Source: Caldilineae bacterium
Lineage (GTDB): Bacteria > Chloroflexota > Anaerolineae > J102
Direction of reading: 5' to 3'
DNA: 12,882 nt
Assembly: GCA_011192085.1 (NCBI GenBank)
Contig: DUEQ01000317.1
Coordinates: forward strand, 1-12,882
The position numbers and the translations under genes were made by a program. Below are positions 1,133-12,860 of this stretch, in pieces. The notes under the pieces are model-generated. The model did no database searches. It saw only the letters and a program-made list of their open reading frames with translations, and had not been told where the DNA came from. Within the stretch, counting starts at the first letter, position 1; each line of letters opens with the position of its first letter.

Positions 1133-2017
1133 ATGATTACCCTTGGCGTCATCGACTACCTCAATGTGGAGCCCCTGTACTTTCGTCTGCAAGAGCGCCT
1201 GGCGGATAAACCGGTGCGTTTTCGTCGGGGCGTGCCCACCGAGCTCAACCGGGCGTTGATGGCGGGGGAGATCGACCTGGCTCCCATCAGCGCCATCACC
1301 GCGGCCCGGCTGGCCGACCAGGTCGCCATCCTCCCCGACCTCGCCATCGCCACCCTGGGCGCGGTCAAAACCGTCCTCCTTTTCAGTTGGATGGCCGATC
1401 CCCGGGAGCTGGACAACTGTCGCATCGCGCTCTCCGACGAATCCGCCACCTCGGTGGAGCTGGTCAAGATTCTCGCCCGCCACTTCTGGCGCATCGCCCC
1501 ACGCTACGCCACCGAATCGCAAGACCTGGATGGGATGCTACGCCGCTCCTCCGCCGCCTTACTCATTGGCGACGATGCATTGGTCGAGTCCGCGCATCGG
1601 CGGGAGATCCGCGGCCGGGGCCAGCCCTACGCCTTCGATCTGGGCGACGAATGGCTGAAGTGGACGGGCCTGCCTTTCGTTTTCGCACTGTGGGCTGTGC
1701 GCCGCGACTCCCTGCCCGCGCTGGCCGAGCTCGACATCCTGCCCGCGCTCTACGCCAGCAAGGCCGAAGGCTTGCAGCACATCCCTGAGATCGCCCAGGC
1801 CTACGCGCCCCGGCTGGGCCTGAACGTGGGCGTGCTCACCAAGTATCTCTACGACCTGCGCTACGACCTTACGCCCGCGGATCGCGCGGGCCTGCTTACC
1901 TATTTCTCCCTGGCCCTGGAGGACTTCTGTCCCGAGACTCTGCTTTGTTGGCGCCCCCAAGAGGGCATGTTCCCCATCTTCGATGAGATCGAAACGCCCC
2001 TTCTCGCTCTGGCGTGA
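1133..2017 (+). CDS. mqnA: Chorismate dehydratase MqnA (futalosine menaquinone pathway)
   Basis: A 294-residue protein of the VitK2_biosynth family (PF02621), usual length for MqnA. MqnA removes water from chorismate to give 3-enolpyruvyl-benzoate, the first committed step of the futalosine route to menaquinone, in the cytoplasm. The fold is that of a periplasmic binding protein without a signal peptide. Visible family marks are DYLNVEPLYF (8-17), a PIS motif at 51-53, SDESATS (101-107), LIGDDAL (144-150) and the stretch at 169-190 reading DLGDEW then TGLPFVFALW. The related MqnD is less likely, because the N-terminal YLN signature and the TGLPFVFA block are MqnA-like. No other menaquinone gene lies nearby, which is common since these genes are often scattered. 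The nuclease gene starts 52 bases downstream and may be cotranscribed. Confidence 0.88.
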   Translation: MITLGVIDYLNVEPLYFRLQERLADKPVRFRRGVPTELNRALMAGEIDLAPISAITAARLADQVAILPDLAIATLGAVKTVLLFSWMADPRELDNCRIALSDESATSVELVKILARHFWRIAPRYATESQDLDGMLRRSSAALLIGDDALVESAHRREIRGRGQPYAFDLGDEWLKWTGLPFVFALWAVRRDSLPALAELDILPALYASKAEGLQHIPEIAQAYAPRLGLNVGVLTKYLYDLRYDLTPADRAGLLTYFSLALEDFCPETLLCWRPQEGMFPIFDEIETPLLALA

Positions 2018-2054
2018 GGTCGGAGGTGGGAAGAGCTGCCATCGAATCTCGACG

Positions 2055-2068
2055 AATCCCCAATCCCC
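2055..2068 (+). repeat. Heptamer tandem repeat AATCCCC x2
   Basis: Two perfect copies, AATCCCC at 2055-2061 and 2062-2068, directly abut the start codon at 2070. The same motif occurs in reverse complement at 5100-5106. It occupies the place where a ribosome-binding site would be expected; the only purine-rich candidate (GGAGGT, 2022-2027) is over 40 bases from the ATG. Confidence 0.6.
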
Positions 2069-2069
2069 C

Positions 2070-3356
2070 ATGCCCGACGACATCCGCGCTCGTCTGAAAC
2101 GGCTGCGCCAGGCGGGGCGAAAACGCCGCCGCCAACCCCCTCGCGGGCCTGAGGCCCCGCAGGAGGAACCCACCCCAAGGCCCGTCGAGTCCTCCACGAT
2201 CGCGCATCATGCGCGCGAGTCCGCAACCGACCTGGCCCATCTGCCTGGTATGGAGGAGGTGGAGAGCCCCTGGGGACGGTATCTCCTCCGCATCTTGCGC
2301 TTTCCCCTGGCGCATCGGCAGGGACGGGTGAGCCTGGGCGAGGTATTGGGCCTGGATGCGGAGGCGGTGCGGATGTTGGCCGAGAGCTCGGAATTCGATT
2401 TTCGGCGGGCCGTGTTTCTCGATACGGAGACCTCGGGGCTGGCCGGAGGCGCGGGAACCCTTGTCTTTCTCACGGGCGTGGGAGCGTTCGAGGGGGACGC
2501 CTATGTGGTGCGGCAGTACTTCGCCCGGAATCCCGCGGAGGAGCGGGCCTACCTGCCCGATCTGGCCCGGCTGCTGGCGGAGCGGGGGGGCCTGGTCACT
2601 TTCAATGGCCGCTCCTTCGACTGGCCCCTGCTGCGTTCCCGTTTCATCCTCGCGGGGGTGACCCCGCCCCAGGCTGAACCCCACCTGGATCTGCTTATTC
2701 CGGCCCGGCGGCTGTGGCGGCCGCGGTTGGGCGCGTGCCATTTCGGCAATCTGGAGCAGCGCATCCTGGGCCACGACCGCCGCGGCCTCGACATTCCCTC
2801 CTGGATGATCCCCAGCCTGTGGTTTCGCTTCGCGCGGGGCGAGGGCAGCGCGCGGGAGATGGAGGCGGTGCTCTATCACAATCAGGAGGATATCGTCAGC
2901 ATGGCGCCCCTGGCCCACGTCATGGCCGCGACCTTGGCCGGGCTGCACGATCCGCATCCTCACGACTGGCTGGCCCTGGCCCGCATCTACGTCCGCGCGG
3001 GGCGTTCCGACCAGGCGGAGATGGCCTATCGCCGGGCCCTGGATCATCCTCTGCCGCCCGCGCTGCGGGCGCAGGCCATGCGGGAGCTGGCCGCGCTGTT
3101 CAAGCGGCGGGGGCGCCGGGCCGAGGCCGCGGTCTGGTGGCGGGCCCTAGTCGAGATGCTGCCTCAGGATATCAACGCGCTGGTGGAGCTGGCCAAGTAT
3201 TACGAATGGGAGGCGCGGGACATGGAAAAAGCCCGAGCGGTGACCGAGGAGGCCATCCGTCGGGCTAAGACCTGGCGGTCGCCGAGGGAGCGGGCGCGGG
3301 CGCTGGAGGCGTTGGAACGCCGCCTGGCCCGGCTGATGCGAAAATTAACGAAGTGA
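2070..3356 (+). CDS. YprB-like DEDD exonuclease-fold protein with C-terminal TPR-like repeats
   Basis: A 428-residue protein. The first 75 residues are basic, then Pro-rich and low in complexity. Residues 115-290 form an RNase H-like exonuclease domain of the YprB type (PF13482). Metal ligands can be placed: DTET (Asp118, Glu120), FNGRSFDW (Asp184) and YHNQED (Asp274), the DEDD pattern of 3'-5' exonucleases. The C-terminal 130 residues look like TPR helices (LALARIYVRAG near 302, then AEMAYRRALD). YprB proteins are little characterised; action on DNA or RNA ends is inferred from the fold only, and the substrate is unknown. An upstream in-frame ATG at 1983 lies inside mqnA and adds an unlikely sequence, so 2070 is chosen. 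The start has no visible Shine-Dalgarno sequence. Confidence 0.8.
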   Translation: MPDDIRARLKRLRQAGRKRRRQPPRGPEAPQEEPTPRPVESSTIAHHARESATDLAHLPGMEEVESPWGRYLLRILRFPLAHRQGRVSLGEVLGLDAEAVRMLAESSEFDFRRAVFLDTETSGLAGGAGTLVFLTGVGAFEGDAYVVRQYFARNPAEERAYLPDLARLLAERGGLVTFNGRSFDWPLLRSRFILAGVTPPQAEPHLDLLIPARRLWRPRLGACHFGNLEQRILGHDRRGLDIPSWMIPSLWFRFARGEGSAREMEAVLYHNQEDIVSMAPLAHVMAATLAGLHDPHPHDWLALARIYVRAGRSDQAEMAYRRALDHPLPPALRAQAMRELAALFKRRGRRAEAAVWWRALVEMLPQDINALVELAKYYEWEARDMEKARAVTEEAIRRAKTWRSPRERARALEALERRLARLMRKLTK

Positions 3357-3385: not shown

Positions 3386-3413
3386 CGGGAACCGTGAACT
3401 ATGAACCGTGAAC
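3386..3413 (+). repeat. Heptamer tandem repeat NNNGAAC x4, containing the elp3 stop codon
   Basis: Four consecutive seven-base units: CGGGAAC, CGTGAAC, TATGAAC and CGTGAAC. They share GAAC at fixed phase and the second and fourth units are identical. The elp3 gene on the opposite strand ends inside it: its stop TAG (3399-3401) and last four codons (Val, His, Gly, Ser) are made of repeat sequence. The rest of the short gap from the nuclease stop (3356) shows no terminator. Confidence 0.7.
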
Positions 3414-5057
3414 GGCGTGGCGAGCAGTCGCCAGGGATTTCATCATGTAGAACGGGGTGAGCTCGAAGCCAAGGCGGCGGTAGTAGTTGCGGGTGCCGAT
3501 GGCCGCGATGACCGCGAGGGCGGGGTAGCCCTCGGCCCGGGCGATGCGCTCCGCCTCGGCCACCAGCCGCGAGCCCAATCCTCGATGCTGGGCCTCGCCC
3601 TGGCTGTCGCGGCCCAAACCCAGCGCCGGGCCATAGACGTGCACCTCGCGGATCATGGCCGCGTGTTTGATCTCATCGATGGGAACGACCTCGGGCGAGT
3701 TGGGCAGGGAAAGGCGAAGGAAGCCAGCGACCTTGTCCTCCGCTGTGACGAAGCTGATGAAGAATTCCCGGTTGATGTCGGTCTCGTAGGGCAGGATGTC
3801 TAGCCGCAGGTCAGATTCGGTCACCTTTTGGCGGCGCACCTCCCGGCAGCGCAGGCACTGGCAGCGGGGCAGGTCATGTTCAACGATGACATGCTGCACG
3901 AGCTGGCGCAGGTTCGTCTTCTTGTTGCCCTCGACGATGTTGGGGGAGGGGATGTCGCGGAAGATGCGGTTGATGCGGGTGTAGCGGGGCACATGGGCCT
4001 TGCAGCGGGCGATGAGGTCGATGAGGATGGCCTCGTCGTAGGGCTGGTAGAGTCCGCGCTGGTAGTAGTCGTACAGCTCCGCCTCCTTGAGCAGGGAGGT
4101 GGGGTAGATTTTGAGCTCGTCTGGGCGGATGGCGGGGTCGTCGAACAGGCGCTGGAAGTCTTCGTAGTCCGTTTTGGGCGTAGCCCCGTAGAGGTTCGCC
4201 ATCCAGTGGGCCACGATCTTGAAGCCCGCGCCCCGCAGCAGCCGAAACGCGCGGCGGGTCTCCTCCACCGTGTGCCCCCGCTTGTTCATGGCCAGGATGC
4301 GGTCATCCATGCTTTGGACGCCCAACTGCACCTTGGTCACGCCTAACCGCCGCAGGTGCATGATCTCCCGCACGCTCACCGCATCGGGCCGAGTCTCGAT
4401 GACCAGGCCCACGTTGCGATAGGGCGCGTCCTCGTTCAGCCGCTGCGCTTCTTCCAGGCTGGGTGAATCCTTCCCGTTCATCGCGTCCAGGCAGCGCTGC
4501 ACGAACCATTCCCGGTAGGATTTGGGGTAGGCGGACCAGGTGCCGCCCAGGATGAGCAGCTCGACCTTGTTGGCGGTGTGGCCCGTGGCCTCGAAGCTGC
4601 GCAGCCGGGACGTGACCTGCCGCCAGGGATCGAAGTCGTTTTGTAGGGCGCGCATGGCTCCAGGTTCGTCGGGCACGTAGCTCTTGGGCATGCGCACGAA
4701 CGTGGGACAGAAGATGCACTCGCCCGGGCAGTCGTAGGGCTTGGTGAGCACGGTAACCGGGGCCACGCCGCTGTGGGTGCGCACGGGCTTGCGCAGCAGT
4801 CGGGCCTCCAGCTCCCTGTCCCTCGCCATCAACCCCATCGCCACCAGCTTGCGATACCCATCCATCAGTTCGGTTTTGGAGAAGAGGCGGCCCCTCTCCC
4901 GGGCGTGGCCGTTGACGATGGCCAGATAGGTCTTGTGGCTCCAGTTTTCGGCCGCGCGGATGCGTGCCAGCACCTGCATCAGTTCCTCGGTGTCGGTGGG
5001 AACTTCGCGGGTGCGGCCTTCCGCGTCAGACCATTTGGCCAGGGTGATGGTGGGCAT
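3399..5057 (-). CDS. elp3: Elp3 tRNA uridine(34) acetyltransferase/radical SAM enzyme
   Basis: A 552-residue full-length Elp3. A radical SAM domain comes first, with the cluster motif CPGECIFC (Cys110, Cys114, Cys117), then GGTWSAYP (171-178) and IETRPDAV (220-227). A zinc-type cluster CQCLRC lies at 399-404. A GNAT acetyltransferase domain ends the protein, with the acetyl-CoA loop QHRGLGSRL at 490-498. Elp3 uses acetyl-CoA and SAM chemistry to place a carboxymethyl group on C5 of wobble uridine in tRNA. Bacterial Elp3 works without the other Elongator subunits and is uncommon; the enzyme from Dehalococcoides mccartyi (Chloroflexota) is a structural model. The start at 5057 has no Shine-Dalgarno sequence. 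The last four residues are encoded by a heptamer repeat. A Trm9-like methyltransferase is divergently placed 97 bases away, which suggests a shared pathway. Confidence 0.92.
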   Translation of the reverse strand: MPTITLAKWSDAEGRTREVPTDTEELMQVLARIRAAENWSHKTYLAIVNGHARERGRLFSKTELMDGYRKLVAMGLMARDRELEARLLRKPVRTHSGVAPVTVLTKPYDCPGECIFCPTFVRMPKSYVPDEPGAMRALQNDFDPWRQVTSRLRSFEATGHTANKVELLILGGTWSAYPKSYREWFVQRCLDAMNGKDSPSLEEAQRLNEDAPYRNVGLVIETRPDAVSVREIMHLRRLGVTKVQLGVQSMDDRILAMNKRGHTVEETRRAFRLLRGAGFKIVAHWMANLYGATPKTDYEDFQRLFDDPAIRPDELKIYPTSLLKEAELYDYYQRGLYQPYDEAILIDLIARCKAHVPRYTRINRIFRDIPSPNIVEGNKKTNLRQLVQHVIVEHDLPRCQCLRCREVRRQKVTESDLRLDILPYETDINREFFISFVTAEDKVAGFLRLSLPNSPEVVPIDEIKHAAMIREVHVYGPALGLGRDSQGEAQHRGLGSRLVAEAERIARAEGYPALAVIAAIGTRNYYRRLGFELTPFYMMKSLATARHAVHGS

Positions 5058-5090
5058 GGGCGTGGGAGATGAGAGAATGGAGGCGGAAGA

Positions 5091-5120
5091 TTGGCGACTG
5101 GGGATTGGGGGTGGTAAGAT
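5091..5120 (+). promoter_or_regulatory. Candidate promoter of the Trm9-like methyltransferase
   Basis: TTGGCG (5091-5096) and TAAGAT (5115-5120) are separated by 18 bases, each matching consensus at four of six positions. Transcription would start near 5127, giving a 5' leader of about 28 bases. The sequence overlaps the heptamer repeat, so the match could be a by-product of it. Confidence 0.3.
5093..5113. repeat. Heptamer repeat, reverse complement of the AATCCCC type
   Basis: Three seven-base units, GGCGACT, GGGGATT and GGGGGTG, lie in the elp3-methyltransferase gap. GGGGATT is the exact reverse complement of the AATCCCC unit at 2055-2068. The units are more degenerate here, but phase and core are kept. 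Confidence 0.5.
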
Positions 5121-5130
5121 GGAGTGAGTC

Positions 5131-5158
5131 GTGATCAGTAATCAGTAATCGGTTATGA
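5131..5158 (+). repeat. Heptamer tandem repeat GTAATCA type, containing a start codon
   Basis: Units GTGATCA, GTAATCA, GTAATCG and a degenerate GTTATGA follow in exact phase. The fourth unit contains the ATG of the methyltransferase gene (5155-5157). The same unit occurs twice at 9261-9274. There is no Shine-Dalgarno sequence in front of the ATG. Confidence 0.65.
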
Positions 5159-5883
5159 AAAGCATTGTTCAGGAAAGGCTGCTTGCCATCAATCGCGAGT
5201 TCTATCAGCGGTTTGCCGCGTCTTTTTCGGGGACGCGGTTCGGCCCGCAGCCGGGCTGGAATCGTATTATACCTTATTTCCCCAGGCGGTGCGCAGTGCT
5301 GGATCTGGGCTGCGGCAACGGGCGTTTTGCCATCTTCCTGGACCAGCATCTGGATCAGGTGCGGTATGTGGGCCTGGAAGGAAGCGAAGCGCTGTTGGCC
5401 ATCGCCCGAGAGCAGACCGCGGGGCTGGAACGGGTGCGGGCGGAGTTCTTCCAGATGGACCTGATCACCCCCGCATGGCATCGACGTTCAGGCTATTTCG
5501 ACGTGGTGACCGCATTGGCGGTGCTGCATCACATCCCCGGCTTCGAGGCCCGGGTCGAGTTCGTGCGCGATGCGGGGCAGTGCATGAAGCCCGAGGGCGC
5601 GCTCATCCTTTCCACCTGGCGGTTCACGCACAACCCTCGCATGCGTCGCAAAATCCTGCCCTGGTCCGCGGTGGGTCTCAGCGAGGCGGATGTGGAGCCG
5701 GGGGATTATCTGCTGGATTGGAAAAAGGATGGCGGGGGAATGCGCTACGCGCATGAGCTGGATGAGGCCGAGGTGCGGGAGCTTGCTGCGCGTGGGGGAC
5801 TGCGAGTCGTCGAGCAATTCGTGGCCGATGGCCGAGAGGGAGATTTGAGTTTGTACAGTGTGTTGCAGCGGGCGTTGGCGTGA
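5155..5883 (+). CDS. Trm9/ALKBH8-like class I SAM methyltransferase
   Basis: A 242-residue SAM-dependent methyltransferase. The SAM-binding motif I is VLDLGCGNGRF (48-58), and FDVVTALAVLHHIPG (115-129) is the motif IV region. Several features resemble Trm9 and the ALKBH8 methyltransferase domain, which methylate cm5U34 to mcm5U34 in eukaryotic tRNA: the N-terminal FYQRFAASFSGTRFG (16-30) corresponds to the Trm9 block YNEIAPHFSQTRY; LHHIPG is followed by a MKPEGALILSTW strand (144-155); and a late RYAHELDEAEVRELA block (197-211) corresponds to Trm9's RYYHLYREGELEE. The neighbour elp3 makes the cm5U substrate. Together these suggest a tRNA wobble-uridine methyl-ester-forming enzyme; this is inference, and another small-molecule or tRNA methyltransferase is possible. 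The methyltransferase identity itself is secure. Confidence 0.85.
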   Translation: MKSIVQERLLAINREFYQRFAASFSGTRFGPQPGWNRIIPYFPRRCAVLDLGCGNGRFAIFLDQHLDQVRYVGLEGSEALLAIAREQTAGLERVRAEFFQMDLITPAWHRRSGYFDVVTALAVLHHIPGFEARVEFVRDAGQCMKPEGALILSTWRFTHNPRMRRKILPWSAVGLSEADVEPGDYLLDWKKDGGGMRYAHELDEAEVRELAARGGLRVVEQFVADGREGDLSLYSVLQRALA

Positions 5884-5928: not shown

Positions 5929-7812
5929 CTAACCTCCGGTTATTTCCCCTTCTGGATACGCGGGCTGCAACCGGATCACCGGGATGATCTTCAGCGTGAT
6001 CTCCACCGGCATCCCCAGGCGATCCGCCAGATGCTCCTGTAACGCGGCCACATCGGCGTGGGACAGAGGCTCTTCGGCTTCCACTTCCAGTTCCAGGGCG
6101 TATCCCTCATCGACGGCCTGGTAGGACCAGTCTCGTAGGACCACGTGGGGGAGGGCGACCACCTCCTCCCGCAAAGCGCTCGCCATTGCGGTTTCGATGT
6201 GCTGTTGCTTGAGCTGTTGCACCGTCACCACGGCCAGGGGGATGCTGATGAGGAGGATCATGACCAGGATGGCCCGCCAGCCCTGGGAGAAGAGGCGGAT
6301 GCGTTCTCGCCGCGTATATTGGGGCTGGAAGCCCATGGACAGGAAGATCCAACTGCTCATGGCCACGATGCCCACGAGATTGGTGAGAAAGAGCAGGCCC
6401 GCGCCCAACGCCGTCTCCCATGACCGCAACGCCAGGGCCATGCCGGTGGTGGACAGGGGCGGGATCAGGGCCACGGCGATGGCAACCCCTGGCAGAGAGG
6501 AGGAGACATGCTTTCGAGTCAATGCATAGGCCCCCGCAGCGCCCGCGGCCAGGGCGACGCCCAGGTCCAGCAAGTTGGGTTCGGAACGGGCGATCATTTC
6601 CGGGGTGAGGTCGTTGTAGGGGATCAGCGATTCCATGATGAAGCTGACTCCAAGCGTGGTGAGCACGCCCCAAAAGGTGGTTCTGATCCCTAGCCTGAGC
6701 AGCCGGGCGTCGCCCTGAACCACGCCCAGCCCCATGGCAATGATGGCTCCCATGAGGGGCGCGATGAGCATGGCCCCGATGATCACCGCGGGCGCGTTGA
6801 GGATCAGGCCCAGGGTGGCGATGATGGTGGAGAGCGCGATCATCGTGATGAAGTCGCGGGTGGTGCGGGCGCTGCGTCGCGATTCCCGGTAGACTTCCAC
6901 CTTCTCCGTCTCGGTGAGGTTGGGCGTGATCGCGGCGATGCCATCCCACAGCCGTCGGAACAGCGTCATGCGGCGGGGCAGGGGGCGCTTGATCACCAGA
7001 ACGGGGATCTGGGCCCGGGCTGCCACCTTCTCTGGAATCTCGCCGAAGCGGATGCGGTGGAGTACGCCCTCGCGCGATGCGCCGATGAGGACCACGTCGG
7101 CGTGGATGGGTGTCGCCATCTGCAGAATGCCCTCCTCGGGCGAGTCGGCCCGCACCACCTGGCAGTCGATGGCTTCGGGCGGCAGGGCGAGGCCCGCCAG
7201 GGCCTGTCGGGTGCGCTCTTCCAGGGCGAGTTGGATGGCGCGCACCTCCTCTTCGCTGGCGTGTTGAGGCGCGACCTGCATGACGATGATGCGGCTGCCA
7301 TAGGCTTGATGGAAATCCTGCGCGAAGCGAAATCCCAGGATGATGTTGGGGCCGCCCGCGCTGGGGATGAGCACCCGGTGCGGGGGCGGCGCGGCTTGAT
7401 TGCCCCGCCAGACCACGAGATCGCAGGGCACATCCATCAGCAGGTCGTGGAGCGTCACATCCTCGTCCACCCTTTCGTTTGGGCCGGGACGACGCCAGCT
7501 CAGGGCCAGGAGATCGGGCTTGAATTCCGCCACCGCATCGCGAATGCCTCCCGCCACCGATTGCGCCTCCCGACGCGCCACCTCCACATCCACCTGTACG
7601 TTCTGGAATCGCTGCGCGGCTTCGGCCAACCAATCGTCATCTTCCTCTTCGCGCCCATCTACGCTAGCTTCTTCCTGAGCTGCATTGAAGAGGGGGCGGC
7701 GAATATGCAGCAAAATGACCCGGGCGCGTTCGCCGCGGGCGACGGGCAGGATGAAGGTGGAGAGAATGGCGGCCTGCTCGGGCCGGGAAAGTGGAACGAG
7801 GATGGTTTTCAT
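5929..7812 (-). CDS. DUF389 membrane protein with N-terminal universal stress protein domains
   Basis: A 627-residue protein. Residues 1-140 and 145-276 look like two UspA-type domains (MKTILVPLSRPEQA at the start; VLIPSAGGPN at 147; VVLIGASREG at 240 followed by IPVLVIKRP). Residues 320-531 hold about seven membrane helices with DUF389 hallmarks: IIGAMLIAPLMG (344-355), GVALAAGAAGAYAL (418-431) and ALIPPLSTTGMAL (448-460). A soluble C-terminal domain (535-615) follows. An acidic run occurs near 54-60. The function of DUF389 proteins is not established; a nucleotide- or stress-sensing transporter or channel is a reasonable guess from the fusion. The start has no clear Shine-Dalgarno sequence. 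It converges with the methyltransferase gene across 45 bases, in which no terminator hairpin is evident. Confidence 0.85.
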   Translation of the reverse strand: MKTILVPLSRPEQAAILSTFILPVARGERARVILLHIRRPLFNAAQEEASVDGREEEDDDWLAEAAQRFQNVQVDVEVARREAQSVAGGIRDAVAEFKPDLLALSWRRPGPNERVDEDVTLHDLLMDVPCDLVVWRGNQAAPPPHRVLIPSAGGPNIILGFRFAQDFHQAYGSRIIVMQVAPQHASEEEVRAIQLALEERTRQALAGLALPPEAIDCQVVRADSPEEGILQMATPIHADVVLIGASREGVLHRIRFGEIPEKVAARAQIPVLVIKRPLPRRMTLFRRLWDGIAAITPNLTETEKVEVYRESRRSARTTRDFITMIALSTIIATLGLILNAPAVIIGAMLIAPLMGAIIAMGLGVVQGDARLLRLGIRTTFWGVLTTLGVSFIMESLIPYNDLTPEMIARSEPNLLDLGVALAAGAAGAYALTRKHVSSSLPGVAIAVALIPPLSTTGMALALRSWETALGAGLLFLTNLVGIVAMSSWIFLSMGFQPQYTRRERIRLFSQGWRAILVMILLISIPLAVVTVQQLKQQHIETAMASALREEVVALPHVVLRDWSYQAVDEGYALELEVEAEEPLSHADVAALQEHLADRLGMPVEITLKIIPVIRLQPAYPEGEITGG

Positions 7813-7895: not shown

Positions 7896-8777
7896 TTACT
7901 TGGCATTAGGGTAAAAGAGCTGCTGGCCGTACGTCTCCTGACCGAATTCGGCGATGAGGGCTTGGGCTTCGACACTGGTAATCCAATCCACAAAGGCCAT
8001 GGCCGCGGCGAATTTATCTTGATGGGCATCAACCTGGCTGATGGGCAGCACGCCGTACTGGTTATAGAGGATGGGATCGCCCTCCACGAGGGTGGCCAGG
8101 TCAAGGTCGTCTTGACGGGCGAGATAAGTGGCCCGATCGCTGAGGGTGTAGGCCCGCTGCTCGCTGGCCATGGTCAGCACTGCGCCCATGCCCTGCCCCG
8201 CACTGCGATACCAATCCCCTCCAGGCTGCACGCCCGCCCTCTCCCAGATGCTCAGCTCCTTGATATGCGTGCCCGATTCATCTCCGCGGGAGACGAAGGC
8301 GGCCTGGGCCTCCGCGATCTTCTTGAACGCCGCGGCCGCGTCTTTCATCTCGCGGATGCCTGCGGGATCGTCGGGCGGGCCTACGATGACGAAGTCGTTG
8401 TACATGACGTCTTGACGGAAGGGCGCGTAGCCATCCGCCACGAACTGCTCCTCGCGGCTTTTGGCGTGCACCAGCAGCACGTCGGCATCTTTGGCCTGGC
8501 CCAGCTTCAGGGCCTGGCCTGTGCCTACGGCCACCACATCCACTTTGATGCCCGTCTTCTCCTCGAAATCGGGCAGGATGGCGTCTAGCAGGCCGCTGTC
8601 ATAGGTGCTGGTGGTGGTGGCCAGCACCAGTTCCCTGGCTGGCTCCACTTGCCCCCCTTCACTGCTTCCCGATGGGCTGCACGCGGCCAGTATGAGGGCC
8701 AGGAACAGCGTCACAGTCAGGAAGGCGATATGTCGAACGGGCATATCGGCGGCCCAAAAAAATCGACGATGCTTCAT
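7896..8777 (-). CDS. tupA: Tungstate-type ABC transporter substrate-binding lipoprotein TupA
   Basis: A 293-residue extracellular binding protein (PBP_like_2 family). A signal peptide ends in the lipobox LAAC with Cys33. TupA-type marks are ATTTSTYDSGLL (53-64), GTGQAL (85-90), NDFVIVGP (127-134), SRGDESGTHIKE (163-174) and YTLSDRATY (210-218). TupA binds tungstate with high affinity and hands it to the TupB permease and TupC ATPase for tungstoenzyme cofactor synthesis. Neither partner is in the window: the next gene downstream is the DUF389 protein. Upstream is a ModE-like regulator, which supports an oxyanion role; molybdate rather than tungstate cannot be excluded. The start is secured by a strong ribosome-binding site AAAGGAG seven bases before the ATG. 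Confidence 0.85.
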   Translation of the reverse strand: MKHRRFFWAADMPVRHIAFLTVTLFLALILAACSPSGSSEGGQVEPARELVLATTTSTYDSGLLDAILPDFEEKTGIKVDVVAVGTGQALKLGQAKDADVLLVHAKSREEQFVADGYAPFRQDVMYNDFVIVGPPDDPAGIREMKDAAAAFKKIAEAQAAFVSRGDESGTHIKELSIWERAGVQPGGDWYRSAGQGMGAVLTMASEQRAYTLSDRATYLARQDDLDLATLVEGDPILYNQYGVLPISQVDAHQDKFAAAMAFVDWITSVEAQALIAEFGQETYGQQLFYPNAK

Positions 8778-8868: not shown

Positions 8869-9249
8869 CTATGCCTTATTTTGCGCCAGCGCCCGCGCCA
8901 GCTTATGCAAATGGGTCGTTCCCCGCTCCTGTGCGCAGGCGTCGATGGCCGCGAAGAGCTTATCCAGGTGCTCGATGAGGACGCGGGCCGCGGGCGTGAG
9001 CTGAGCCCCGCCGCCCCCGCGGCCCCCCACCGTCGTCTGCACCAGGGGGAACCCCAGCCGATCCTCCATGTCGTGGATGCGTTGCCAGGCCAGGCGATAC
9101 TGGATGTTCATGGCCTTGGCCGCGGCGCTGATGGAGCCCTCCCGATCCACGGCCTTCAGCAGCTCCATGCGCCAGCGGCTGAGCGCGACATCCCCCCCCT
9201 CGGTTTCGAGCCAGATGTTCGCGTGGATAGTGAGGGATGGAAGGGGCAT
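8869..9249 (-). CDS. One-domain ModE-like winged-helix regulator
   Basis: A 126-residue protein matching the N-terminal DNA-binding domain of ModE (LysR-type winged helix). The recognition helix region GSISAAAKAMNIQYRLAW lies at 38-55, and the wing with the typical glycine run GGRGGGGAQLTP at 75-86. The molybdate-binding Mop domains of full ModE are absent, leaving about 30 uncharacterised C-terminal residues. It probably regulates tupA 91 bases downstream; without the Mop domains the ligand, if any, is unknown. Similar short ModE-like proteins are known beside molybdate and tungstate transporters. The ATG has no Shine-Dalgarno sequence, and a GTAATCA heptamer pair lies about 12 bases upstream. 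Confidence 0.85.
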   Translation of the reverse strand: MPLPSLTIHANIWLETEGGDVALSRWRMELLKAVDREGSISAAAKAMNIQYRLAWQRIHDMEDRLGFPLVQTTVGGRGGGGAQLTPAARVLIEHLDKLFAAIDACAQERGTTHLHKLARALAQNKA

Positions 9250-9300: not shown

Positions 9301-9316
9301 AAGCGCTCAGGCGCTT
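9301..9316 (-). terminator. Small hairpin around the clpX stop codon
   Basis: On the minus strand AAGCGC (9311-9316) pairs with GCGCTT (9301-9306) around a four-base loop CTGA that contains the clpX stop TGA. The sequence after it is AT-rich but lacks a clean run of T, so it is at best a weak terminator. Confidence 0.2.
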
Positions 9317-10599
9317 TTGGCCAGTTCTTCGTCGCTGCGCCAGAGCAGGGGTTGATCCTGGTCATTCAACAGCAGAGGGCGGGTTCCCTGGGTGATGTTC
9401 TCCGCGTTGACCACGCATTTGGCCACGTCATCCCGGCCCGGAATCTCGAACATCACGTCCAGCAGCACATTTTCGACGATGGTGCGCAGGCCGCGAGCGC
9501 CCGTTTTGTGGGCCATGGCCTGTTGGGCCACCGCGCGCAGGGCCTCGGGCGTGAACGTGAGCTCCACGCCGTCCAGGGCCAACAGGCGCTGGTACTGGCG
9601 CACCACCGCGTTCTTGGGCTGGGTGAGGATGGCGATAAGGGAGTCTTCCTCCAGGGGTTCGAGATTGACCACCACGGGCAGGCGTCCCACGAATTCGGGG
9701 ATGAGCCCGAACGCCAGCAGGTCTTCGGGACTGACCTTCGTCAGGAGCTGGGTGCGGCGCTTCTCCAGCGCCGCTTTCTCCATGGGCGCGCCGCCAAAGC
9801 CCAAACGCCCTTCTGCGCCCACGCGCTTGGCGATGATCTCCTCGATGCCCGCGAACGCGCCCCCAGCGATGAACAGGATGTTGCTGGTGTCGATGGAGAT
9901 GAGCTCCTGCTGGGGATGTTTGCGTCCGCCCTGGGGCGGGATGTTGGCCACCGCGCCCTCGATGATCTTCAGCAAGGCCTGCTGCACCCCCTCGCCCGAT
10001 ACATCTCGGGTGATGGAGGGGTTGGCGCCTGACTTGCGCGCGATCTTGTCGATCTCATCGATGTAGACGATACCGATCTCGGCCCGCTCCACCTCCCAAT
10101 CGGCAGCCTGAAGCAGCCGCACCAGGATGTTCTCCACATCGTCGCCCACATAGCCCGCCTCGGTCAGGCTGGTGGCGTCGGCAATGGTGAAGGGCACGTC
10201 GAGGATGCGGGCCAGGGTTTGGGCCAGCAGGGTCTTGCCGCTACCGGTTGGGCCCAGAAGGAGGATATTGCTCTTCTGCAACTCTACCTCGTCGATCTCA
10301 TGGCCCCAGATGATGCGCTTGTAGTGATTGTAAACCGCGACGGAGAGGACCTTCTTGGCCCGTTCCTGGCCGATGACGTACTCATCCAGCCGTCGCACCA
10401 GGTCCTGAGGCGACAGCACCTGGTCCATGCTCAGGGTGATGGCGGGTTTCTGCTGAGCCGAGGGGGGCACGCCTTCCTCTTCCAATATCTCGACGCATAG
10501 GCCCACGCATTCATCGCAGATGTTGACGCCGTCCGGACCCGCGATGAGGCGCTGCACCTCATGTTCGGGGCGATGACAGAAAGAGCAGTAATGGGTCAT
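9307..10599 (-). CDS. clpX: ATP-dependent Clp protease ATP-binding subunit ClpX
   Basis: A 430-residue AAA+ unfoldase that recognises tagged proteins and feeds them into ClpP. A four-cysteine zinc-binding domain lies at the N-terminus (Cys5, Cys8, Cys28, Cys31). Walker A is GPTGSGKT (116-123), Walker B is VYIDEID (178-184), the substrate-gripping pore loop is GYVGDD (149-154), and the RKH loop is at 226-228. The ClpP-docking IGF loop appears as LGF (266-268), and sensor 2 as GARGLR (367-372). All key residues are present and the length is typical. The gene starts two bases after the clpP stop, so the two are almost certainly one transcript, with translational coupling likely. Confidence 0.97.
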
Positions 10600-10601
10600 G
10601 G

Positions 10602-11237
10602 TCAGTCTTCGCTCTTCTCAAGCATCGGATCAGGCTCGCCGAAAATGTGGTCGATGATGCCGTATTCCAGGGCCTCCTGGGGGTGCATGTAATGATCGCG
10701 GTCAAAATCGGCCTCGATGCGCTCCATGGGCTGGCCCGTGTGTTTGGATAGGATGTAGAAATTTGCGTTCTGCAGGCGTTCCAGCTCCTTGAACTGGATG
10801 CGGACATCGGGCGTGTAGCCATGCGCGCCGCCGCCCGCAGGATGCATGTGGATGGTGCTATGGGGCAAGGCGTAGCGCTTGCCCTTCTCGCCCGCGGCCA
10901 GGAGGATGGTGGCCATGCTGGCGGTGATCCCCACGGCCCAGGTGGACACGGGCGCCTGGATCATCTGCATGGTATCATAAATAGCCAGCCCCGCGTAAAC
11001 GTGCCCGCCAGGGGAGTTGATGTAGAGCTGGATGTCTCGTTCGGGGTCCACATGGTTGAGATAGAGCATCTGGGCGATGATGCTGTTGGCCACCTGGTCG
11101 TTGATGGGCGTGCCCAGGAAGATGATGCGCTCTTTGAGCAGCAGGGAGTAGATGTCCATGGCCCGTTCGCCGCGCCCTGTCTGCTCGATGACCATGGGGA
11201 TGAGGGATTGGGGGATGTTCATGGGGGTTTCGTTCAT
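10602..11237 (-). CDS. clpP: ATP-dependent Clp protease proteolytic subunit ClpP, divergent active-site loops
   Basis: A 211-residue ClpP, the barrel-shaped serine peptidase that works with ClpX. The catalytic triad is Ser107 (in [13 protein letters not shown]), His132 (in MHPAGGG) and Asp196 (in YGIIDHI). The oxyanion loop INSPGG and the helix GLAIYDTMQ are normal. The loops around Ser and His differ from the common GQAASMGAFLL and IHQPLGG at the same length, which suggests a distinct ClpP branch. An upstream in-frame ATG at 11363 would add 42 residues encoded by heptamer repeats, so 11237 is chosen; 11222 is a weaker alternative. There is no strong Shine-Dalgarno sequence. The gene lies between tig and clpX, the usual order. 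Confidence 0.93.
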
Positions 11238-11267
11238 GGTGATCTTTACAACCTGTTTTTTATCATT

Positions 11268-11299
11268 CTCACGCCAAGTGGCTAAAAAGGCGCAAAGTA
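11268..11299 (-). repeat. Degraded octamer-type repeat upstream of clpP
   Basis: On the minus strand the stretch begins ACTTTGCGCC and ends TTGGCGTGAGA. This resembles a decayed relative of the GCG-octamer repeat at 8828-8851, sharing GCGTGAGA and GCGCCTT. It lies 31 bases before the clpP ATG, where a promoter is expected; no convincing -35/-10 pair could be fixed. Confidence 0.3.
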
Positions 11300-11312
11300 A
11301 AAAGAGAAGTTT

Positions 11313-11340
11313 GCAGGTGGCAGGTTGCAGGTGGTAGGTA
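11313..11340 (+). repeat. Heptamer tandem repeat GCAGGTG x4
   Basis: Four consecutive units: GCAGGTG (11313), GCAGGTT (11320), GCAGGTG (11327) and a degenerate GTAGGTA (11334). An inverted copy of the same motif lies at 11358-11367, so the array and its inverted copy can pair. Confidence 0.7.
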
Positions 11341-11367
11341 GGCTGCACAAGTTGACTTGCCACCTGC
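11313..11367 (-). terminator. Long stem-loop between tig and clpP, possible terminator
   Basis: GCAGGTGGCA (11313-11322) is perfectly complementary to TGCCACCTGC (11358-11367). Pairing continues inward for four more bases including two G-U pairs (11323-11326 with 11354-11357), giving a 14-pair stem with a loop of 27 bases. On the minus strand, in the sense of tig, the stem is followed after about eight bases by a T-rich stretch. It could separate tig from clpP-clpX transcription, though the loop is large and the T tract is displaced. Confidence 0.4.
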
Positions 11368-11396
11368 GACCCGCCGCGCCCTCATTTTACGGGTTT

Positions 11397-11456
11397 TTAT
11401 GCTTCTTCGGTTTCCTCAGCCTCAGATTCGGCATCTTCTTCAGGAGAACGTTCTTC
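11397..11456 (-). other. In-frame continuation of the trigger factor acidic tail after the stop
   Basis: Directly after the tig TAA (11457-11459), the same frame stays open for 19 codons and ends at a second TAA (11397-11399). The encoded residues are Glu-rich (11 of 19 are Glu or Asp), in the same style as the tail before the stop. No start codon is in it, so it is not a separate gene. It looks like the amputated end of tig, or a readthrough extension. Confidence 0.6.
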
Positions 11457-12860
11457 TTATTCCGCGCCTTCCTCTTCCTCGTCAGCTTCATCTGCCACCG
11501 CCTCAACCGCTTCCGGTTCCTCGGGCGCTTCTTCCACTGGATGCTCGCCCGGCGCGGGAACCTCCTCGCCCTTGGCGATGGCTTTCAGCAGCTTGAACGC
11601 CTTGCGGCGCAGGACGATCTCGCGGATGAACTCGCGATAGCCCTCGTTGGATTGCATCGCCTCGATGAGCTCCTCCGTCTGCGAAGAATCGAGGCTCGCA
11701 TCCCGAATGTACTGCTCCAGCTCATACTGGGTGACCTCGAACCCCTCCCGCTCGGCGATGGCGTCCAGCAGCAGGCGATCCTCCAGCCGGGTGCGGGCGT
11801 CGGGCTCCAGCTCCTTGCGATACGCCTCCATGCTCTTTCCCTGGAGGTCGAGCAATTGCTGAGTGGACTCGAAGCCGTACGCCTTGTAGATGTCTTCCCG
11901 CTCCCGCTCCAGGAGCTCGACCTCGCGGGCCAGGGTGGCGGGCGCGTAGCGAATGGTCGCGCCCTTCTTCAGCTTCTCGGACAGCTCGGCATTGAATTTT
12001 TGCTCGGCGTCACGCGCCAGATGGGCGCGTGCAGCTTCTTCCACAGCTTCCTTGAATGCCTCCACCGTTTCGTATTCGGTGTTCTCGGCCACCAGTTCGT
12101 CGGTCAGTTCGGGCAGCTCGTCGGCCTTAACGCCCTTCACCTCCACTTCGAATTCCGTGGTCTTGCCCGCCCAAGGCGAATCACTATCCTCGGGGAAGTC
12201 GATGGCGAAGGTCTTTTTCTCGCCCGGCTCTATGCCCACGATGGCCGCGTCGAACTCGGGCGACAGGGTGGGAACCTCCGCGTCGGGGATGATCTCCCAT
12301 TCATCCTGGTCGATCTCGGTCTCTCCATCCACCGTCATCTTCATGCTGAGGGTGACCAGATCGCCGTATTCCACCGGACGATCAACTGGATTCCACACCT
12401 TGTTATGCTCCAGAAAATGATGGAGCTCTTCGTCCACCCGTTTAAGGACTTCGGCCTCGTCCACGGGCTCCAGGGGCACGCGAATGGCGCGATAATCGCC
12501 CGGATCGACCTCGGGCTTCAGGGGAACGGCGAACTCGTACGTGAGCGGTTCCAGCTCCACATGACGCAGCGCCGCGCCAGGGACGATCTTGTCCTCGTCC
12601 ACCCCCTTGATGGCTTCCTGGAACACCTCCTCAGCCAAATCATCTGCCAACTCTTGCAGCAGATACTCCCGGCCAAGACGGGCGATGATGAGATTCGCGG
12701 GCGCTTTGCCGGGCCGAAAGCCGGGAATGCGCATCCTGCGCCCCAGCTTTTTCGCCAGCTTGCGCAATTCCGCATTCACGCGGTCCTGGGGAACCTCCAC
12801 CTTCAGGAGGAGCTCGTTGGTGTCTTCGAGGATTTGTTGGGTGATATTCAGTTCAGACAT
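11457..12860 (-). CDS. tig: Trigger factor (ribosome-associated chaperone and prolyl isomerase)
   Basis: A 467-residue trigger factor, which binds the ribosome at the tunnel exit and shields nascent chains. The N-terminal ribosome-binding domain carries the signature GFRPGKAP (47-54). An FKBP-type prolyl isomerase domain spans about 165-245 (YGDLVTLSMK at the start, then IEPGEKKTF near 210). The helical chaperone domain runs from 250 to 430. An acidic tail of about 35 residues, mostly Glu with Ala, Pro and Val, ends the protein. The start at 12860 has AAAAGG six bases upstream. The stop TAA is flanked on both sides by in-frame Glu codons, so the natural C-terminus may be 20 residues longer. 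It is upstream of clpP-clpX, as in many bacteria. Confidence 0.96.
   Translation of the reverse strand: MSELNITQQILEDTNELLLKVEVPQDRVNAELRKLAKKLGRRMRIPGFRPGKAPANLIIARLGREYLLQELADDLAEEVFQEAIKGVDEDKIVPGAALRHVELEPLTYEFAVPLKPEVDPGDYRAIRVPLEPVDEAEVLKRVDEELHHFLEHNKVWNPVDRPVEYGDLVTLSMKMTVDGETEIDQDEWEIIPDAEVPTLSPEFDAAIVGIEPGEKKTFAIDFPEDSDSPWAGKTTEFEVEVKGVKADELPELTDELVAENTEYETVEAFKEAVEEAARAHLARDAEQKFNAELSEKLKKGATIRYAPATLAREVELLEREREDIYKAYGFESTQQLLDLQGKSMEAYRKELEPDARTRLEDRLLLDAIAEREGFEVTQYELEQYIRDASLDSSQTEELIEAMQSNEGYREFIREIVLRRKAFKLLKAIAKGEEVPAPGEHPVEEAPEEPEAVEAVADEADEEEEGAE

Follow-up and report, generated by a model that had tools for sequence, protein, structure and literature searches.

A head-to-head elp3 and Trm9-like methyltransferase gene pair as a probable bacterial wobble-uridine pathway

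Can a bacterium make mcm5U/mcm5s2U34, wobble-uridine modifications that to our knowledge are usually regarded as a eukaryotic signature, with two adjacent genes? The question is raised by a 12,882-nucleotide stretch of DNA from a Caldilineae bacterium of the Chloroflexota (DUEQ01000317.1, contig C243 in our numbering, from the 2.5 Mb, 76.5% complete assembly GCA_011192085.1). In this stretch, which we call the window, elp3 lies head to head with a gene for a class I S-adenosylmethionine (SAM)-dependent methyltransferase:

3399..5057, minus strand: elp3, 552 amino acids (aa), predicted radical SAM and GNAT enzyme that carboxymethylates tRNA U34 (TIGR01211, Pfam and PDB matches)
5058..5154, no strand: intergenic region, 97 bases between the start codons of the two divergent genes
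5155..5883, plus strand: Trm9-like class I SAM-dependent methyltransferase, 242 aa, proposed to convert cm5U34 to mcm5U34 (similarity, linkage, residue set)

An earlier interpretation made from the letters of the window (the sequence-only reading) placed the two genes head to head and 97 bases apart, exactly as the open reading frames lie, and took them for a two-gene bacterial mcm5U34 pathway. Conserved linkage, co-occurrence with Elp3, exclusion of MnmG and Trm9-like profiles support that proposal, and we put at about 0.8 the probability that the pair is a bacterial wobble-uridine pathway in which Elp3 makes 5-carboxymethyluridine (cm5U34), the Trm9-like enzyme makes its methyl ester (mcm5U34), and the two together replace MnmE/MnmG. 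Elp3, acting alone with Elongator partners assumed absent, would draw on SAM radical chemistry and acetyl-CoA to carboxymethylate U34 at C5 in its putative substrate tRNAs, and the divergently encoded methyltransferase would then methylate the cm5U carboxylate with SAM. MnmA, whose gene lies at another place in the genome, is the probable source of a 2-thio group on some tRNAs, yielding mcm5s2U.

The conserved linkage of the two genes carries much of this argument. We examined a phylum sample (an even draw of 400 genomes) and a class set (55 genomes of the window's own family and class), counting methyltransferase matches to the window protein at E <= 1e-15. Elp3 occurred in 68 of the 400 phylum genomes and the methyltransferase in 41, all from the window's own family or class and all with Elp3 (41/41); in the class set, 42 of 55 genomes encoded Elp3, and the 13 that did not were also without the methyltransferase at this threshold (13/13). 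Across the 68 Elp3 genomes, the methyltransferase gene was divergent and near in 61, elsewhere in five, not found in one and cut off by a contig end in one, so that adjacency across Chloroflexota is strongly conserved. Within the class set the pair lay within 5 kb in 36 of the 42 Elp3 genomes and was divergent in every such case (36/36), and the two hits were 220 to 2207 bases apart, implying that another gene separates them in some genomes. The threshold had given the impression that Elp3 genomes outside the class are without the methyltransferase. This proved to be an artefact of applying 1e-15 to the window query: 25 of these 26 genomes carry a divergent relative directly beside Elp3 (83-99 bits with a profile of the bacterial family), and in the remaining one (G368) Elp3 is cut by the contig end. 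Two of the 25 encode a 103-residue Elp3 segment that is 97% and 94% identical to the Elp3 of Dehalococcoides mccartyi (DmcElp3), for which reason we call this group Dehalococcoides-related; the gene for the structurally solved DmcElp3 thus very probably adjoins a Trm9-like gene as well.

The arrangement extends beyond the phylum. A scan of species genomes using the methyltransferase alignment alone returned 198 loci, and the best 80 were mostly from Anaerolineae and other Chloroflexota metagenome bins, with 18 from outside the phylum (Myxococcota/Deltaproteobacteria, Acidobacteriota, Dojkabacteria, Patescibacteria and bacteria without a phylum name). Elp3 lay within 62 of these 80 loci and was divergent in 60 of the 62; 16 of the 18 genomes with no Elp3 in the locus carry it elsewhere, bringing the total with Elp3 to 78 of 80. 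All 18 non-Chloroflexota genomes encode Elp3, 17 in the locus and 16 divergently (the exceptions are L122, with both genes on the same strand, and L118, with Elp3 outside the locus), and linkage is maintained there at 24-39% identity. Some of the best 80 loci are contigs of genomes that we had also sampled (for example, L065 corresponds to G343:C27 and L068 to G055:C20), so the locus count and the genome-sample count are not independent. Because it recurs in such distant genomes, the divergent arrangement is found far more often than chance would produce.

The second line of evidence concerns MnmE-MnmG, which also modifies C5 of U34 (PMC7663514) but does so with other enzymes and to another product. 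The sequence-only reading had pointed to mnmE and mnmG as genes to look for; MnmG turned up in no Elp3 genome searched, and MnmE in none of the 42 in the class set. Counted at E <= 1e-40, MnmG was present in 152 of the 400 phylum genomes (143 above the model's cut-off), and MnmG and Elp3 occurred together in none of the 400, against 25.8 genomes expected (Fisher p 1.4e-16, uncorrected for kinship). No taxonomic family in this sample contained both, and 180 genomes had neither. MnmG was likewise absent from 18 of 18 Elp3-encoding genomes outside the phylum. MnmE scored above cut-off in three of the 55 class-set genomes, each with MnmG and each without Elp3 (0/42 of those with Elp3). The window genome is incomplete, so the absence of MnmE/MnmG from that genome alone means little. 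MnmA was above cut-off in 67 of 73 genomes, making a thiolated product plausible. Separately, ten class genomes (G037, G128, G152, G208, G262, G276, G283, G304, G325 and G349) had MnmA with no Elp3, no MnmG at the threshold and no MnmE above cut-off.

The Elp3 gene product is full length, as the sequence-only reading had held, with Radical_SAM, Radical_SAM_C and Acetyltransf_1 domains and a TIGR01211 score of 504.5 bits (cut-off 350). Its closest PDB relative is 5l7j, DmcElp3 (E 1.6e-114). Two sites are placed as follows:

4707..4730, minus strand: radical-SAM CxxxCxxC motif of Elp3 (C110, C114, C117), aligned to CPGKCIYC of DmcElp3
3483..3485, minus strand: Elp3 Y525, aligned by hand to Y517 of the acetyl-CoA site of MinElp3

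In a hand-made residue mapping anchored on KIYP, the radical-SAM cysteines, the tunnel residues E207/K302/Y304 and the lysine acetyltransferase (KAT) residues K150/K266/Y517 (MinElp3 numbering) are identical in the window Elp3, MinElp3 and DmcElp3, and the position of MinElp3 Q461 is E in both the window protein and DmcElp3. Roles for the tunnel and KAT residues are described in PMC13315578 (section 10) and PMC6367351, the latter assigning Y517 of MinElp3 to the acetyl-CoA site. Residues 1-84 of the window Elp3 (4806-5057) form an N-terminal extension of about 85 residues ahead of the radical-SAM domain, and the TIGR01211 match begins at residue 79. DmcElp3 differs from the window protein in having no counterpart of this extension (our alignment; PMC6367351); the N-terminus of archaeal Elp3 is a tRNA-binding region (PMC6367351).

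What, then, is the methyltransferase? Its Pfam matches are to Methyltransf_12 and related models, and no NCBIfam model scored above cut-off among the best 25 of 35 matches. The best single-sequence PDB match was Yarrowia Trm9 (5cm2_Z, E 1.5e-7, residues 26-208). Searched with a profile of the window family, the PDB returned 5cm2_Z third by E-value (4.5e-13), after two plant phosphoethanolamine methyltransferases; among the best 60 of 241 PDB rows, it was the sole one whose best stretch extended beyond profile position 160. The blocks that the sequence-only reading had compared with Trm9 (FYQRFAASFSGTRFG, LHHIPG and RYAHELDEAE) are all found in the translation, and the following sites can be placed on the gene:

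5236..5238, plus strand: R28 in the FSxTR block, aligned to the TR of eukaryotic Trm9 (yeast R29)
5308..5322, plus strand: SAM-binding GCGNG motif, from the sequence alignment
5527..5532, plus strand: H125-H126 in the LHHIPG block (yeast H115 region)
5704..5754, plus strand: two-stranded hairpin (residues 184-189 and 195-200) with RYxH, resembling the Trm9 lid in an AlphaFold2 model

The AlphaFold2 model (predicted local distance difference test score, pLDDT, 94.9) predicts a class I fold with a hairpin that matches the two-stranded lid described for Trm9 (PMC5372719). We compared individual positions across 80 bacterial proteins, 119 Trm9-type proteins related to Yarrowia Trm9 and six outgroup rows. 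R28 is R in 79 bacterial and 118 Trm9-type proteins, the remaining one in each set being a gap, and H125 is conserved in 75 and 119, respectively, and in none of the outgroup rows; H126 is present in 80/80 and 119/119, and R197 in 79 of the bacterial proteins. We considered single-residue columns as proof of Trm9 identity and dropped them, as outgroup letters shift between alignment runs (R at the R28 column in 1/6 rows at first, 2/6 after realignment), and we therefore relied only on a combined set. R28, H126, W155, R197 and Y/F198 are all present in 78 of the 80 bacterial proteins (L115 and L119 are incomplete) and in 118 of the 119 Yarrowia Trm9 relatives, and together in none of the six outgroup rows. 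Automatic annotation has already labelled a few metagenome members "tRNA (uracil-5-)-methyltransferase TRM9" or "alkB family protein 8".

Profile comparisons point the same way. Aligned by hhalign, 37 bacterial proteins and 16 eukaryotic Trm9 (15 of them named fungal) matched with a probability of 99.5 (E 8.5e-23, 187 columns). We then scored nine eukaryotic Trm9 and nine other methyltransferases with hidden Markov models (HMMs) of the bacterial types. The two groups did not overlap with the Patescibacteria-type HMM, built from 11 proteins (Trm9 105-132 bits, others 27-72), with the Dehalococcoides-related-type HMM (73-91, others up to 53) or with the window-type HMM (51-69, others up to 48). 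The margin was narrow in the last case (lowest Trm9 51.4 bits, UbiG 48.4, E. coli CmoM 30.3). The same HMM gave Patescibacteria-type proteins 105-150 bits, so that the window type connects to Trm9 in part by itself and chiefly via the Patescibacteria type.

Phylogenetic trees agree with a Trm9-like identity. We built four, of 57, 56, 53 and 70 rows, with CmoM included in the last three and CmoB in its place in the 57-row tree. A split between the bacterial family with eukaryotic Trm9 on one side and E. coli methyltransferases on the other was supported at 79/45, 95/96, 91/83 and 92/88, respectively (in the 56-row tree, the Trm9 side also took in three long-branch paralogs); the methyltransferase thus falls outside UbiG, UbiE, BioC and CmoM wherever these were included, with support from weak (79/45) to good. 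Eukaryotic Trm9 stood beside the Patescibacteria type in the 57-row (90/96) and 53-row (98/95) trees, beside the long-branch paralogs in the 56-row tree (36/65) and weakly beside the Dehalococcoides-related type in the 70-row tree (56/1). The branching order is accordingly not proven, and we make no claim as to which way any transfer between bacteria and eukaryotes would have gone.

Several observations weigh against the proposed pathway or against the kinship with Trm9. Well supported as it is by genome evidence, the pathway is a prediction as far as its chemistry is concerned. The pair is unlinked in five class genomes, with the genes more than 600 kb apart in two and on separate contigs in three; one class-set Elp3 genome (G192, also headed L186) has no methyltransferase at E <= 1e-15 and none in the 6.4 kb around Elp3; and two genomes of the best 80 loci (L060 and L069) have the methyltransferase with no Elp3 detected. 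A eukaryotic Trm9 profile run on the 55 class genomes had the Elp3-linked enzyme as its best match in 31 of 41, another methyltransferase in 8 and no match in 2, and it matched Elp3-less class genomes down to 4.4e-12; on single proteins, its scores for window-type rows overlap those of controls. A fold search with the methyltransferase model did not single out Trm9, and single residues are not exclusive to the family, R197 being present in four of the six outgroup rows and H126 in three. The approximately unbiased (AU) test did not reject monophyly of the bacterial proteins apart from eukaryotic Trm9 (p 0.52, 56-row tree), nor a clade joining the Anaerolineae type, to which the window protein belongs, with CmoM (p 0.21, 53-row tree). 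Finally, we mapped yeast-numbered columns on what we take to be the yeast Trm9 sequence. The equivalents of R29, H115 and R241 occur in 79, 75 and 79 of the 80 bacterial proteins and all three in the window protein, whereas at the Y243 column 70 of 80 carry V, C or A (and 6 carry Y, all among the 11 Patescibacteria-type proteins) and N271 has no clear match in the bacterial alignment. The parallel with Trm9 drawn by the sequence-only reading therefore holds for the R29, H115 and R241 equivalents and the lid hairpin and fails for Y243 and N271 (residue roles as in PMC5372719); for this reason we call the enzyme Trm9-like and not Trm9.

These uncertainties leave room for two other roles of the methyltransferase. 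It might be functionally linked to Elp3 and yet act on a different wobble acid (cmo5U), or at another position of the same tRNAs. Three points speak for such a role: CmoM, annotated as tRNA cmo(5)U34 methyltransferase, also belongs to class I and forms a methyl ester on a wobble carboxylate; the AU test leaves room for joining the window clade with CmoM; and another tRNA methyltransferase, METTL6, came first by Z in the fold comparison. However, it is Elp3, the enzyme that produces cm5U, with which the methyltransferase strictly co-occurs; eukaryotic Trm9 scores 51-69 bits with the window-type profile and CmoM only 30; and the residue set found in 78 of 80 bacterial proteins is, as a set, absent from CmoM. 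We consider such a role unlikely. More improbable still is a UbiG/UbiE-like enzyme of metabolism whose gene has no more in common with elp3 than the promoter region. The class I fold is generic, metabolite methyltransferases come equally close in the fold comparison, UbiG falls just below the lowest Trm9 with the window-type profile, and NCBIfam gives weak UbiG and CpaM matches. Yet the UbiG model scores only 37.8 bits (cut-off 102.95) and MenG_MenH_UbiE 17.7 (cut-off 158.35), all four trees set the family apart from UbiG, UbiE and BioC, and the two genes stay linked both beyond the phylum, where identity is down to 24-39%, and beyond the class, in 25 of 26 Elp3 genomes.

A further alternative keeps the pathway from cm5U34 to mcm5U34 and changes its cast: the enzyme may be active only as a heterodimer with a Trm112-like protein encoded elsewhere, as eukaryotic Trm9 needs Trm112 (PMC5372719). 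Trm112p (PF03966) was above cut-off in 44 of the 55 class-set genomes, including that of the window, which has a 77-aa Trm112-like gene. That gene lies on a different contig, though, and across the class set Trm112p occurs both with and without Elp3, sometimes inside long frames that are not stand-alone Trm112, while some Elp3 genomes have no match or only one below cut-off. Outside Chloroflexota, five of 18 genomes had a match above cut-off. Among 14 small genomes with both genes (Dojkabacteria, Patescibacteria and others), 13 were without a match to this profile, which at 40 positions can miss diverged relatives; one of the 13 (L107) is a record titled complete genome, and the sole match lies inside a 724-aa frame. 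This favours a Trm112-free enzyme in these small genomes. The suggestion of the sequence-only reading that Trm112 is perhaps dispensable accordingly gains from the small genomes, and the enzyme of the window genome may or may not depend on Trm112. We regard an obligate heterodimer as possible, if somewhat doubtful.

How does the proposed two-gene pathway compare with known systems? Eukaryotes use Elongator (Elp1-6) with Trm9-Trm112 or ALKBH8. The bacterial pair shares with this route an Elp3 with the same catalytic residues and a methyltransferase with equivalents of R29, H115 and R241, the lid hairpin and overall profile similarity to Trm9; it differs in consisting of two divergent genes, in the mostly changed Y243 and N271 equivalents of the window type and in a 2-thio step predicted to depend on MnmA, where eukaryotes employ Ncs6/Urm1 (PMC5372719). 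Archaea with Elp3 and Trm9 homologues (Haloferax, Sulfolobus) are similar in that Elp3 occurs there without other Elongator subunits (PMC2584109, PMC5372719), and elp3 and trm9 are clustered in Sulfolobus solfataricus (PMC2584109). Archaeal Trm9 homologues are reported from a limited subset of archaea. DmcElp3 is itself a bacterial Elp3, and its near-identical relatives have a divergent Trm9-like neighbour; a 2020 review treats Dehalococcoides as one specific clade of bacteria with Elp3, for which direct evidence of xcm5U34 is missing (PMC7663514).

That numerous bacteria carry Elp3 is stated in a 2026 paper (PMC13315578), and its wide occurrence in bacteria is therefore nothing new. New are a likely second enzyme, encoded beside Elp3 in almost all of the phylum genomes examined, and the mutual exclusion of the pair and MnmG. 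A 2017 review holds that no bacterial homologues of Trm112-dependent methyltransferases are detectable (PMC5372719), and the literature searched, which mostly did not include subscription papers, yielded no account of either a bacterial Trm9 or an elp3-methyltransferase pair. We lean towards a broader view in which a widespread head-to-head cassette of Elp3 and a Trm9-like enzyme (in Anaerolineae, Dehalococcoides and relatives, Patescibacteria, Dojkabacteria and a few Myxococcota and Acidobacteriota) would make mcm5U/mcm5s2U34 in place of MnmE/MnmG, without Trm112 in small Patescibacteria genomes, and would constitute a minimal Elongator pathway, possibly near the ancestral form of the eukaryotic one. 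Such a system would accomplish with two or three proteins what requires at least 15 in yeast (PMC5372719), and the xcm5U34 question is now reduced to tRNA mass spectrometry on an organism with a solved Elp3 structure.

No tRNA genes were found in the window, a promoter scan of 4950-5250 gave no sigma-70-type match, and a search of plasmid records returned three partial matches only. Beyond the methyltransferase gene, 5929-7812 encodes universal stress protein domains fused to a DUF389 membrane domain, and 7896-8777 and 8869-9249 encode a tungstate/molybdate-type binding protein (214.7 bits with the TupA model, below its cut-off of 400) adjoining a ModE-like regulator domain; none of the proteins scanned was identified as a transporter permease. 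On the other side of the pair, the gene for a PF02621-family protein of menaquinone biosynthesis (1133-2017) overlaps at its end the gene for an RNase_H_2 and TPR protein (1983-3356). The genes for clpX, clpP and trigger factor follow one another on the minus strand at 9307-12860.

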